Positions 1 through 56,700 of a DNA stretch of 64,000 nt are shown one piece after another. The translations under genes were made by a program, and so were the position numbers. The DNA is taken from assembly GCA_020091685.1 (NCBI GenBank), contig CM034605.1:6991019-7055018 (forward strand), given 5' to 3'. This DNA is from Lutjanus erythropterus (Eukaryota; Chordata; Actinopteri; Lutjaniformes; Lutjanidae). Under the pieces are notes generated by a model, which searched no databases, was not told the DNA's origin, and saw only the letters and a program-made list of their open reading frames with translations. The stretch's first letter is position 1. Every line of letters starts with the position of its first letter.

Positions 1-3000
1 GGTCAACATTTTTATTTTGCTTCAGTTGCAGAGGTAAACACAACAGAGCATGTATGATCGCACAAAGAAATGATTCGTATTGACGTAAAATGCTTAAATT
101 TGCAAGAATTTAGAGACAAAGGATGCAGATTTGTGGGGTTCAAATAAAAAATTAAACGTGCAAGTACAAAAATCTAGATGTACAATAAAATATATTTAGA
201 AATACAAGAGACGTTTTCTGGGTTAATTTCTAGTCTTTTCCAAAGGCGGTGGATCTTAAGTGCATTAGTCCACCAAACACCTGCCAATATCCTGGTTTGT
301 TCCCATGGAAAACATCTGCATCCCACAGCATCACTTCCAGGATCATCGGATTCACAATAAAATTAGGATGCAAATACAGCTTCAACATTTACCTCTTAGA
401 TTAATCAGTTGTTCTATTTGCATATTTCTGTAATTGCTACTCAGCATGAGCAGCGCCCTGATTTATAACTTACAGACTATGGAAAAGGCTTTGAAAATCT
501 TGAATCGACGCAGAATGTGAATAGTGAGGCTCAGTTTTACACCTGATCTGGAAATGTGAAAGATGGAACTATTTCTTCCATGTGTCTATTTTTGAATCAG
601 GCCTAAGCATACCAGCGGACTCAAAGCAAACAAGGAAGAACACTGTCTGGTATTAAAAATAGTTTTTGCGCAGTGACGAGCGACTTTTTGAGGACAGACA
701 ATAATCAGCCTTTCACTTTGGAGCATGGGGGAGAGGGAAAAGAGAAAATGAGAAGGCTGTTGTTGCATAGCTCTATCAAGGAAGAAGGACTTTGTTATCT
801 GTGAATGGGGCTTCTTTTTTGACCAGAATAGATATAGCACGAATTTTAATTCGTTTTTCTTTCAGAGACAACAATGCTTTATTTGAAAGCTCCATACAAT
901 TTGGGTTTGAGAGATCCTTTCTCCTTGTCCGAGCCCAGCTGCCCATATGGGATACAACGTGTGCAGCAAAGATCACAATGGCACCGTGACAGGCAGGACA
1001 AAAGCCTGCTGATGCGTCTCCTGACTCTGAACAGCACCAAGAAACTCTGTCAGTCAGCTCTCTATCTATCCACACTGTCTGCATCAACCCACTCCGCTGT
1101 TCGTTAACATGCACGCCTCAACATCCAGCAAAACCAGGCCTGGCCTTTGTCTCTCTGTGTTGTGTTGTGTGTACTGTATTATGCAATGATGGAGTCACAA
1201 AACTGCCTCATCAGAGAGGCAAAACTGCATGGACACACCAAAGTCCACATTTGTCTTCCAGTTGAGGTTTTAATAATGCTTTTCTTTAAGACTAATTCGT
1301 TTTTAAACATTTTATTTTAAAGGTACGACAAGGATTTTAGCTGATAATGAAACAGCCTCAATTTACTATTGATGCCTCTTATTACCCACGTTAATAAATG
1401 AGACAATCTGCAAGAATATTGGGTATTTATATAGTTATTCTTAATGCCTATACACCGGGTCTGGATTTTCCTTGAAATCAGATGAAAAAGTCCATGCTTA
1501 CATTTTCAAGGCAAAGTTACAGTGAGTAGTACCACAGCCATTAAAAGTAACAGGAGAGATTTTACGTCCAGATAAATATATTTTTGACGTTATATTTTGT
1601 GGTTGTGGCAATGAAAACACTACGGGTTTTGTCCACAGGTTCGCCCAAAATCAACAACATATGAAATTTCTGTAGCTGCTTTTTAAAGAAGTCAGAATGT
1701 CAGCCATAGTTCACTAAAAATCCAATCACAGACAGCCAGTCATTTATTATCACCGCCTTTTGCAGTTTAATTTATAATTAACGTCTCATATCATACCCTC
1801 CTCACATCTATTCTCATATAACTGAGCTTATAAGCGATTACAGCACGCTACAAGCATCGATAAAGGCATAAAAACGAAAACTGTAACCAACTCTGCTGAT
1901 TTATTTGACCTACAAGCCAACCGGTGGTGAAACACAAACCTTTCTGTTTAGGACAACAGTCTGTGTCGCCCACAAAAGCAGCAGAGTCTTTGAGACTAAT
2001 TCCTGTGCAATTAGCAAATCTGCCCAATTTAGCTGTTTGTTCAGTGATGATAGCGACCTCTAACATCTGCTGTGAGATTCACAAACAAAAGCACAGATTT
2101 TTCTACTAGGTTATCATATTTACCCAAGATATTGACTGAGTCTGATAATCCGCAGTGCGCTGCGGATCACTGAGAGCCATTTGTGTTTGTTTTTGGTTCC
2201 ACCTAAAGAACACAGTGACTAACAGGGCATTTATATATTTTAATGCGAATATCATCACCGACACGTTATATGACTATTGCAATAGCTTATTAGGCGGTTA
2301 AAGCCCCTCTGGGCCGTAAGCGTATTTTAGTTGACCGTTTGGCCGTGGAAACAAAGAAGGCTTGTGACTCATTGATTATTCCTGCTTCTATTTGCAGTTT
2401 AAGGCTTAACAAGATAACAAAACATTTATTGCATTAAACGTTTTTTCTCCCACACAGTCTAATACTTTACACCCAATTCCTGGGAGTGGTGTGGGGATGT
2501 TGACAAAAAGGAGAGCTTTTGACTCAAAAGCTTCTTATGTAGAGAAGCCCTTATATTAAGTGAGTGGATTTTAGTCCCATTTCACAAGTGACTTTAGGCT
2601 TTATTAGTGAGGTGTCGGACTGAGAAAATATTCTGGATTAAATTTGCTTAGAAAAGAAAGGAGGCGCTGAAGATTTATTCCCAGAATCAAGCTCCATTCT
2701 GTGTCACAATATAGTGTTTTGGCTCTTCCATTATGACGTTTAGCGATGTCTTTTCAAATAAATCGAATAGACACTTATATAAACCAACCATCGTTTCAGA
2801 AACACAGCCTTTTATTTTAAAATCCTTATAAAAAATGATTTTTATCCACCATCACCGCGCGGCTGCACTGTTATTCACAAATATGATCTGACTGCTTTGC
2901 CAAAAATCCCTCCCTCATTTTCTCTTTTTAAAATTTGTAAATATATATAGCATAGGCCGATTCCAGCTTTACGCTCCAGAAAGTTCTCGATGCCACAAAT

Positions 3001-3393
3001 ATTTACAAGAAATAAACCAAAGGAAAATAGCTGAAAAGTTGCCGTTTTTATTCATGGCCATAAATATTTTTTTTTTTTCGGTCCATAAAAGAAGCAAGAA
3101 ATTAAAATTTCTATAATTATAAAGTGGTTCGTACGTGCTGATAATAACACGAAGGGACAAAAGAAAAAGAGAGAGAGTGAAAACATCTCTACAACCAACA
3201 CACAACAACATACTTTTACAAAAAATTTCACAAGAAGAGCATTGACATTCTTAATAAAAATCTATAAGGGAGAGGTTTGGACCCAGTTCTCTTAACTTAA
3301 AACATGTGTAAACAATGGCGCACACATGAGTTCTGAATAAAATGGTAGTATATATATGAGCAAGCTGCAAAATGAAAAGTCTTTGTTTTGTGT
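1..3393. other. flank downstream of nkx2.2, no gene seen
   Basis: No coding exon, RNA gene or clear mobile element was recognised here. The stretch is AT-rich and mostly unique in appearance. The part next to nkx2.2 (about 2700-3393) is T-rich and on the minus strand could be its long 3' UTR: several TTTATT words (AATAAA on the minus strand), for example at 3394-3399, could serve as poly(A) signals. A small perfect palindromic hairpin lies at 2148-2167 (8-bp arms, 4-base loop). The nkx2.4 gene that neighbours NKX2-2 in other vertebrates is not present in this window. Confidence 0.5.
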
Positions 3394-3480
3394 TTTATTT
3401 TTTCTTTCTTTCTTTGGCTTTAGGTGAAACTCTAATCGTGCTTCCGCAAGTCAAGCCTAAGTCTCTATAATTTTCTTCTC

Positions 3481-4014
3481 TCACCAAGTCCACTGTTGCG
3501 TTTGCACCAAGTGATGTGCTGGAACTGTATGCAAGCCGCGGCGCTGTATTGCGCGTTATACTGCATGTGTTGGAGTGATCACTATAAGCCGAGAAGGGAT
3601 CCTGGCCTGAAAAAGTGGCCACAAGTCCTGAGCTTTAAGAGGTGACAAGGCTTTCCATCCCTGACTAAGACGGCACGGCCACCTCGCCTGCTGGGAGAAG
3701 AGATGGGTCACTTCCATACCGGCCCAAGCCTCTTCATCTTATACCGGTGGTTCTGGAACCAGATCTTCACCTGGGTCGGGGTGAGGCGGATCAGGCTGCT
3801 GTGGTGCCCTCTCCGGGCGGACAGGTACCTCTGCTGCCTGAAGCGGCGCTCCAGCTCGTAGGTCTGCGCCTCTGGAAAACAACAATCTCCTTTCCGCTTC
3901 TTGCCGGAGTCGCTGCTGCCGCTGCTGGAAGTTTCCTTGTCGTTGTCCGGCGATTCATCGTCCACGGACGGCTCCGGGACTTGGCCGAGTCCCAGAGCTG
4001 GCGGATAGGCCGTG
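3481..4014 (-). other. nkx2.2: nkx2.2 exon 2 coding part with homeodomain
   Basis: Begins near the HGLSASS block at 4014 and ends at TGA 3483-3481. The frame changes go: HGLSASS; DSAKS (one frame over); PEPSV to GKKRK; RRLLFS (3888-3874, shifted); [18 protein letters not shown] (restored); PER (3816-3808, shifted); SLIRLTPTQ to HRYKMKR (restored); GMEVTH (shifted); VLVRDGKPCH (3671-3642); KAQDL (3636-3622); ATF and PFSAYS; HMQYNAQYS; LVQTQQWTW. Read literally, the homeodomain frame ends at a TGA at 3710-3708. No AG dinucleotide stands immediately before the HGLSASS codons, so the exact acceptor is uncertain. Confidence 0.75.
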
Positions 4015-4675
4015 TTCGCGGCAAGAAACGGGAGAAACACTGTCAAAATGTTAAGTGTTGTAAAGTTCTCAGGACATTTATCACAAAATCAATCCACATA
4101 ATCATCAATCAAAAGTTTTGGAATATAATATAAAAGAACCTGTTAATGATTTAGCACTTGTGAAAACAGCAGATATTTACAAGATATTTGACATTTTTGG
4201 TGCAGATAATAAAAACAAGAATATCTGTTATTTGAACTCTTTTTTTGTAATTTTGAAGTGAAAGTACCTAATAATATCTCCAGCCTAAATCTGCACAAGC
4301 AGAGCGAGTCAGTGAAGTGCCGTTTAAAGCATCATTGTCTGCTTGCAACCCCACAGAATGCAGCCTTATTTTTCACACCGTGCTTACACTCTGAATAACT
4401 TACAGCCCTGCGTGTTTATCCGCGTTGCTTTATCGATCACATTCTACAATGCAAAGTGCGTGGAGCCCAAAACACTACATGCACTGTTGAGCAAACGCCT
4501 TCAAGACAGAGCTGCACGGTGCATAAAGATGAATGCTGCACGCCACCCAAGGGCACCGTTATAAGGGTGGAATAGGAGGCTTATGCCATCAATTATGGCT
4601 AATGTAACCGCATAGCCTGAAATTATCACAAGTCGTTATCAGCAATATCAAGAAGGATCTTTAGACTCTACTTAC

Positions 4676-4934
4676 ATGAATATTAATACTGTCCGTAGTA
4701 GCAAGCCATCGTGTGTAAGGATTGTCACTACTGTCATAAAGGGTTCTTTAAAGGCAGATTTTGGAACGTTTTCTAGAGGACTTTGCACCAAACCCAGCGT
4801 TTTTTGTCGTGGGATGTCTCCGATCCCTTCCGTGTCTTCCTCCGCTCCGGTGATAGATCCTCTTCGTCATTTGTGTCAGGAAGGTCCAAAATGTCCTTTA
4901 CAGAAAAGCCCGTCTTTGTGTTGGTCAACGACAT
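4676..4934 (-). other. nkx2.2: nkx2.2 exon 1 coding part
   Basis: Runs from the ATG at 4934 to the donor GTAAGT (GT at 4675-4674). One frame carries MSLTNTKTG through NDEE; a second carries GSITG and later LVQSPLENV (4791-4765); LPLKNP (4757-4742) is back in the first; YDSSDNPYTRW onward (4738-4685) is in the third. The expected residues between DSI and the exon end are shortened, consistent with a missing base plus a small deletion. If read literally, translation stops at a TAG about 60 codons after the start, before the homeodomain. Confidence 0.8.
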
Positions 4935-5021
4935 ATTCTGGTGGGGAATATGCAGGAAAAAGCAGTTGCAGCACCAGCTTCGACAATCCGCTGTTTTGAA
5001 ACACAAAAAGAAAAGAAAAAA

Positions 5022-9725: not shown

Positions 9726-10091
9726 GTTATTTTTTTATAGAGTTGTAACAGTTATTCAGTTATTCAACAGTCCATCCAAAGAAAATTAATCACCAACTTT
9801 TTGATGCCATTACTCATTTCAGTATTTTTCAACAAAATGTCAAACATTAGCTTGTTTCAGCTTCTAAATGTCAGGATTTGCTGCTTTTCTTCTTTATGAT
9901 AGTAAATTAAGATCTTTAGGTTTTAGTTTCTTTGTTGACAAAGAAGCCATTCAAAGAGTCACTTTAGTGTGGGAAATTGTGATGAGCATTTTTCACATTT
10001 TATGGCATTTATAGACTAAACATTAATCAATTAATCCTGAAACCAAATTGCTGATTAATTGATAATGAAAATAACTTAGTTGCAGCCCTAT
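9726..10091. mobile_element. dispersed teleost repeat with ATTAATC-rich ends
   Basis: The block has the layout of a very common fish interspersed repeat: a start rich in TTAATCA words, a middle reading like AAATGTCAGGATTTGCTGCTTTTC and GGGAAATTGTGATGAGCATTTTTCA (recognised by eye), and an end with repeated TTAAT/ATTAA followed by GTTGCAGCCCT. It is non-coding and diverged. The class is uncertain, probably a non-autonomous DNA element. A second, more degraded piece is near 40135-40325. Confidence 0.6.
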
Positions 10092-14890
<4,799 letters not shown>

Positions 14891-53719: not shown

Positions 53720-56700
53720 GTAAGTCTGCGTTACCATGTGCACGCTTCAGAGGCAGGGGCCGACAACGCTTGCGTAAAGGAAGAAATAAGCGTTTGTTTT
53801 ACAGATAATGTACAAATGCAGAGTGTCTCTTGGCGACAGCTTGTCAAACTTTATTGCAGTGCGGATTTTTCCAGCTCTATTAAGCAGGCCTTGTTGTCTA
53901 TTTAAAGCTTTAAATCTTAAATGCAACCACACCAGCAATTATTCCATGAAAAGTGTGTCTTTGGAGAACTCTCGAGTGTCAAATCCTCAAGCTCGCCATT
54001 TTTAATGTTGTTTTTTTTTTTGTTGTTGTGTACGCAGTATGGTGGAGGATAAACCAAACCAAACGATTTACACACTCCGTAAAGTCGCAGAATGGCGATT
54101 ATTACCTACAGTTTGCCAGTCTGTGTAGGTTGACACATGTTAAACAACTGTGGAACGTCAATTTATGGTGCAATTTACAGGATATTGCGCTACACTGATG
54201 TAGGCTGAACTTGGCTGAAGTTGTCTCTTAATAATGAATAAAAAATATATATGAAATTGTATTTTGTGGCATTATAATGGCAACATAGTGATATTATATC
54301 TTATTCACTATGTGTCAAAAATTCTTATGTGACTTGTACTTCTATTCTCCCGCAGAGCAAACCTATGGTGAGGTGAACCAGTTAGGCGGCGTGTTCGTCA
54401 ATGGGCGACCCTTGCCCAATGCCATCCGATTAAGAATAGTGGAGCTGGCTCAGCTCGGGATCAGACCCTGCGACATAAGCCGGCAACTCCGAGTCTCTCA
54501 TGGTTGCGTGAGCAAGATTCTAGCGAGGTACAACGAGACGGGCTCCATCTTACCCGGTGCCATCGGTGGGAGCAAACCGCGGGTCACGACGCCTAACGTG
54601 GTGAAAAATATCAGGGAATACAAACAAAGCGACCCCGGGATCTTTGCCTGGGAGATCCGGGACAGGCTTTTGGCAGATGGAGTTTGTGACAAGTACAATG
54701 TCCCGTCGGTCAGCTCGATCAGCAGGATTTTACGCAACAAGATTGGAAATCTGTCCCAGCCCAACCAGTATGAGAGCAGTAAGCAAGCCTCGGCACAGGC
54801 CGGGCTCTCCTATAACCCCATATACCCCTATTCCTACCCCAACACCATGTCGCCCACTGGCACTAAAATGGGCAGCCCTCCTGGAGTACCGGTGACGGCG
54901 GGACATATGAGCATATCCAGGGCCTGGCCTTCTGCACACACCGTCAGCAACATCCTCGGTATACGAGCCTTCATGGATCCTGCAGGTGAGGAAAACACAA
55001 CACTCTTACAGGCCTCTGCGGCTCTGTGCTGTGCATGTGCGCCTTCAGCTCTCTCTGTTCTCAAATAAGACTTTAATAAACCAGTGCAGCTGGTTATTAT
55101 TGTGCTGCCCTGCATGATGGATCGCCATATTGCGCCGTACAACCTGTTCTGGCAGCAGGCAGGACAATGTGTCCATTAGAAGTTGTACAGGCCTCCGTTT
55201 CAGCATTCAGCCAGAAAGCAGTAAGTCGACTCTCAATGGGCCTTTTCATGGGATGATGCATTTGCAAACACTTTGCTCACCTGCTATATCCCCCTAATCC
55301 TTCAAGTAGTCATTACAGGCATTTTTTGTCTCCTTTAGTCAGTGTTTTCATCCAGTGTTAAGTTGTCTGGTCCCGTGTGTTTTTTGTGCCACAAGGGCCA
55401 ACATAATAATAATAAAAAAAAAAACAAATAAAAAAAAAAAAAAAACACATGTAAAAAATAATGTAAAGTTACATATTTTAAAATTATTTTTTCTGAGTGA
55501 AATAGCTCGATGCTGTAAATCTGCGTATACGAGAATATTGCTTCTTTTAGACACACATTTGTGTAAACTTAACATTTGATAAAAAGCAAAACTGTATTAG
55601 TATAGTATACCTAAACAATGTAAAAATAAATTGTTAAACAAGAAAAGAGTATTCACAATTTTCTGTTGTTGTTTCCTTAAAATTTAATCGTTTTTTGTAT
55701 TTTGATTTATTTCTTTAAGATTTAATTGAAATCAGGGCCTGTTTTTATAATACATGCAAACAGTCACACACTTTAATAATAATTATAATAATACTGATAT
55801 ATAATTCTAGATTTGTTCAATTAATCCTAACTTCGTAACCATATTAGATAGGCCTGCTATTTTGAAAATGAAATATATCTTATAGCCCAGACAGGGCTGT
55901 GCGTAAAGCATTTTAAATATGTCTAAAATTTATATTAGTAATTATGAAGCTAAATAGGACTGCATTGTTTTAGCAATGTTACACATCTTTGACGTGAAGC
56001 TATGTTTTTAAATCAGCCATTGCTGGGACTGATGGATATCCACCAAAAATGGAGGAGTGGAGTAGCGTCAACAGAGCAGCCTTCCCCGCGGCTCACGCAG
56101 TCAACGGGATCGACAAATCAGCCATTGACGCCGACATAAAATACGCACAGGTAAAAAATATTTATATGTATATATTTACGTATATTTATCTGTACAGCCT
56201 GCAACGTTTCTACATCAGCTCAGAACAAGCGTGACTCTGTCACGCCATTTTCTTTTCTTTTTAGGAAACGGTCCAAATGTTTAGTGCCAAAATGGGCAGA
56301 GGCCTTTGGTAAATTATTGCTCTGGCTCCAAAGGCCTGTGGCACAGTTGTGAAAAGTTTCCATATCAGAAACCCTCAAACAAAGTCACATAAGGCCACAG
56401 AACTCTGCTTGATAAGATTTTACCCCTGAGACTGAGGAGTTTTATTAGCCAACTGTTGATTAAATGTTTACTTCTGAGATGACAGAGGAAACTCTAATTA
56501 GTCCTATTTATGGTAAACTAAATTACAGTGAATTTCATGTTTTCCTCAATTTGCTTCTCTTCTTCTAAACCACTCACACACCGTCTTCGAGCCCCACTGG
56601 TGTAGGCTACATGATGCCACTGTCACTTACAATTACAAGTACAGCGCGTTTGGAGTTGTCTTTTGGGCTTATTTTGTCCATGTCTTCTTATCTGCCCGCC

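Follow-up and report, generated by a model that had tools for sequence, protein, structure and literature searches.

The frame-broken nkx2.2 gene of Lutjanus erythropterus very probably reflects an assembly artefact at an error-rich contig end beside a gap

The window analysed here is a stretch of 64,000 nucleotides from the assembly of Lutjanus erythropterus (C15:6991019-7055018, C15 being CM034605.1; genome 937.6 Mb, 444 contigs). It carries near its left end, on the minus strand, a gene with exon 1 at ~4934-4676 and exon 2 at ~4039-3481, of which the start codon occupies 4934-4932 and the stop codon 3483-3481. The intron begins with a GTAAGT donor at ~4675 and closes with an AG acceptor directly before ~4039, both splice sites having been judged by eye. 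The gene has the characteristic start, the NK2 homeodomain, the QQWTW end and the neighbours nkx2.4 and pax1, and on these motifs, names and neighbourhood we take it to be nkx2.2. The nkx2.4-like gene, presumably correctly so labelled, lies at C15:6953639-6955187 on the same strand as nkx2.2 and about 40 kb away, counting the run of N described below. The features first needed are:

3481..4039, minus strand: nkx2.2 exon 2, homeodomain to stop codon; 8 explicit frame breaks plus compensated ones
4676..4934, minus strand: nkx2.2 exon 1; 6 frame breaks; one match in the genome search
54292..55068, plus strand: pax1 paired-box exon, used as a control; open frame

Both exons of nkx2.2 are legible block by block, but never in a single frame. 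A frame-aware alignment gave 14 explicit frame changes, with compensated ones in addition, so the frame-scattering described in the initial annotation is real; its count of at least three switches in exon 1 was too low, whereas its twelve for exon 2 were about right. In exon 1, 78 residues agreed with the reference and 1 differed, with 6 frameshift steps; in exon 2, 160 agreed and 16 differed, with 8 frameshift steps, while 5 residues were missing and 1 codon was inserted. Most of the differing residues in exon 2 are clustered in short runs (EREHLAS, RRVAVPV, QAGIP and TPQF) that look like compensated indel pairs, and for this reason the true indel count is probably higher than 14. The reference used for this alignment was a composite, built partly from the expected sequence of the family. 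Its first ~45 exon 2 residues were taken from the window itself, so that breaks there would escape, and its last 52 residues came from the second version of the sequence introduced below; the aligned stretch also started one base inside the start codon, which accounts for an M scored as missing. Comparison with a solved homologue, the VND homeodomain (1qry), shows the homeodomain breaks independently: the longest open reading frame of the coding strand over exon 2 covers the homeodomain, with the N-terminal arm and the PEREHLA segment broken.

Neighbouring and related genes served as controls. The paired box of pax1 reads in a single open frame and covers the Pfam PAX model (125 positions) from position 3 to 125; its alignment to a C14 paired box spans 376 bases and contains 82 mismatches and no gaps. 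The contrast that had been drawn with pax1, as a gene free of frame switches, thus holds for the paired-box exon, to which our control applies. Both exons of the nkx2.4-like gene are also open. Pairwise homeobox alignments were of little use as a gap control, since at this divergence the aligner also places gaps between several intact genes; the open frames of the other NK2 genes are the better control.

The surroundings of the window proved informative. Window position 1 is the first base after a run of exactly 5,000 N (C15:6986019-6991018), the sole N in the joined stretch of 114 kb that we examined. The window's first 3,632 bases recur in a second version as the 3,713 bases directly left of this run, and the match between the two versions stops exactly at both edges of the run. 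Because the overlap terminates in this way, we infer an assembly gap here; the geometry, as read from the sequence, is that of two overlapping contig ends, unmerged and set end to end. The corresponding features are:

Window 1..3632, equal to C15:6982306-6986018, no strand: DNA assembled twice; dovetail overlap of two contig ends
3481..3632, minus strand: part of exon 2 common to both contigs; copies differ by 8 indels and 4 substitutions; translations compared
1317..1682, no strand: dispersed repeat inside the overlap, used as an independent arbiter of the copies; many genomic matches; 22 differing columns
~9769..10099, no strand: second dispersed repeat; excess deletions in the window copy

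How the two versions of the overlap differ was assessed in three alignments. By blastn they share 93.1% identity, with 128 gap openings (177 gap bases) and 81 mismatches, and an alignment with low gap cost gave 146 indels and 45 substitutions, whereas with MAFFT there were 157 substitutions to 93 indel runs. The claimed excess of indels over substitutions is therefore present in the first two alignments and absent from the third, the split depending on gap cost. In the low-gap-cost alignment, 157 bases, in 98 events, are absent from the right copy and 76, in 48 events, from the left, and transitions make up 32 of the 45 substitutions. Deletions together with transitions would fit nanopore data. 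Single bases are missing from the right copy at 61 sites, 23 of which lie outside any run, and the error is therefore not purely one of homopolymers. Long homopolymer runs make up a smaller share of window 1-3632 than of the left copy, but we give this no weight, as other stretches differ in composition.

Where both copies cover coding sequence, the left one reads correctly. It encodes 52 residues up to QQWTW and the stop codon in a single frame, whereas the window copy of this part has stops in two frames, and its third frame, although uninterrupted, yields a different sequence and does not meet the stop codon. The disabling changes of the window copy are absent from the left copy over the shared coding part (window 3481-3632), and there the gene does not qualify as a pseudogene. 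The dispersed repeat at 1317-1682 allowed a comparison of the copies outside the gene. Judged against 6 other genomic copies of this repeat, 17 of the 22 differing columns favour the left version, 4 favour the right and 1 is a tie; without a ragged end block of 10 columns, the left version is favoured in 9 of 12 columns and the right in 3. Relative to the repeat consensus, the left copy has 11 indel runs and the right copy 14, compared to 2-7 in the six other copies, the left copy being better than the right yet not flawless. The two copies thus differ in consensus quality, by reading frame (left in frame, right not) as well as by the repeat. This left/right comparison of the gene covers 3481-3632, exon 1 and the homeobox existing in one copy only, and for these we extend the artefact reading because they are located in the same contig end.

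The poor quality may reach well into the right contig. Noise persists in exon 1, at 4.7-4.9 kb. The window copy of the second dispersed repeat, located at 9.8 kb, shows 16 deletion runs relative to the family consensus, compared to 1-7 in nine other copies, and 17 indel runs in total compared to 5-12. In a repeat at 48.2 kb there are 5 deletion runs, and indel runs total 6, where eleven others have 0-5 and 0-6; this places it at the top of the others' ranges, so that it may not be clean. These figures are suggestive only, but low quality may extend ~10 kb into the contig and be less by 48 kb. A microsatellite at 11573-11672 consists of (TA)n followed directly by (TG)n, 61 and 40 bases long, each a 100% match; being free of mismatches, it argues mildly against heavy noise at 11.6 kb. 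The repeat families at 1317-1682 and ~9769-10099 each have many genomic matches, mostly at ~71-80% identity among the best 40 candidates scored.

Genome searches with exon 1, exon 2 and the C-terminus, in which only the best candidates were scored, found no other nkx2.2. Exon 1 had one match, the window's own, and the C-terminus had one, the left copy. With exon 2 there were 15 matches, eight of which were identified: the window, the left copy and six other genes of the NK2 type, whose homeoboxes are open. Going by their C-termini, we take these six to be nkx2.1, nkx2.4, nkx2.9 and another NK2 gene. An nkx2.2 paralogue from the teleost genome duplication had been considered as the source of a pseudogene, and was set aside on finding that the six matches read are other NK2-type genes. 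A search with window 1-5000, in which the best 40 of 3,392 candidates were scored, was filled by the dispersed repeat and left unlisted the NK2 homeoboxes of the exon 2 search, and counts as weak evidence. A second nkx2.2 is likely absent from the genome, as judged from these searches.

We consider it very probable that the frame-shattering of nkx2.2 is an assembly artefact at an error-rich contig end beside a gap. An intact, apparently single nkx2.2 would straddle the break between two contigs, both of which would enter the gene and overlap by ~3.7 kb. The start of the right contig, where the window begins, would bear many small errors, as from a thin or unpolished long-read consensus, and these errors would have prevented the assembler from merging the contigs. 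The scaffolder would then have set them end to end with a spacer of 5,000 N, so that the overlap became a false tandem duplicate and the reading frame of the gene looks shattered. In this account the sequencing technology, low read coverage, the cause of the non-merging and the intactness of the biological gene are points that we infer. Of the explanations offered by the initial annotation, poorly polished local sequence gains strong support, as the window starts at the edge of the N run and the other edge carries an in-frame second version, while a young, indel-driven pseudogene or an editing oddity finds no support, the sole other assembled version reading normally where it is present.

The same arrangement could be read as a real tandem duplication, in which the left copy is functional, the right copy is a decayed pseudogene and unsequenced DNA lies between them. 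One scaffold indeed carries this 3.7 kb twice, the two versions being 93% identical, and the left one is in frame where it covers nkx2.2 while the right one is out of frame. However, the N run bounds the match precisely on either side, as it would for overlapping contig ends, whereas a duplication would be expected to have ends independent of the run. The left copy also stops within exon 2 and exon 1 is found only on the right, so that together they make up one gene, although the N run could conceal another exon 1. The excess of indels over substitutions, seen in two of the three alignments (blastn and low gap cost, with MAFFT giving the opposite), also speaks against a duplication, and we regard this reading as very improbable. 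We give equally little credence to its more specific form, in which a broken, indel-riddled nkx2.2 stands beside a functional tandem copy hidden partly in the N run, after a recent duplication and rapid indel-driven decay.

Two copies flanking a gap would likewise result if two divergent haplotypes had been assembled in succession (a heterotype duplication), one allele then carrying genuine frameshifts. The divergence of ~7%, with many indels of 1-3 bases, tells against this, being far beyond usual allelic variation; at least 14 frameshifts in one allele of a developmental gene would moreover be unlikely, and the repeat copies mostly favour the left version. The work on false gene gains (PMC9516828) attributes most false duplications to the heterotype class, but at this locus we hold the explanation to be even less probable than a tandem duplication. 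That the single nkx2.2 of this fish is truly broken, or is rescued by recoding or RNA editing, would agree with the failure of the genome searches to find another nkx2.2; the left contig, however, holds the same gene end without any frameshift, and we consider this the least probable reading, with a chance close to negligible.

With an assembly artefact as the preferred explanation, the main value of the case is one of caution. Automatic annotation could report a truncated or lost nkx2.2 together with a spurious extra gene end, although the gene is probably intact, and the warning that it would wrongly be called absent or truncated is a reasonable one. The pattern can be screened for before gene loss is claimed, as frameshifts in the first kb after an N run combined with a match beyond the run, and dispersed repeats such as those at 1317-1682 and ~9769-10099 can be used as internal gauges of quality.

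Comparable errors have been described in other assemblies. The Vertebrate Genomes Project report describes homotype duplications near contig boundaries, which are about as long as the reads and differ in consensus quality (PMC8081667). The nkx2.2 case agrees with a false duplication of this homotype kind, located where two contigs meet and with one end unpolished: the same DNA is present twice, at contig ends flanking a gap, with copies unequal in quality. The suffix of one contig matches the prefix of the next across the N run, itself taken to be a gap, and an overlap of 3.7 kb could fit a length about that of the reads; our judgement was drawn from the assembled sequences. The same report gives an example of frameshift errors left by an unpolished consensus, TLK1 in the primary assembly of Anna's hummingbird (PMC8081667). 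There, as here, unpolished errors break the frame of a conserved gene, but the better copy of TLK1 is described as an alternate haplotig, whereas for nkx2.2 it is the neighbouring contig, at its overlapping end, that supplies the better copy, and only for part of the gene. For false gene gains through duplication errors, PMC9516828 uses a scaffolded gap between the duplicated pair as a criterion and names sequencing error as a source. The nkx2.2 locus resembles such cases in having a duplicated pair parted by a scaffolded gap and sequencing error as the likely source; unlike the gains described there, however, it would probably lead an annotator to see a lost gene more than a gained one.
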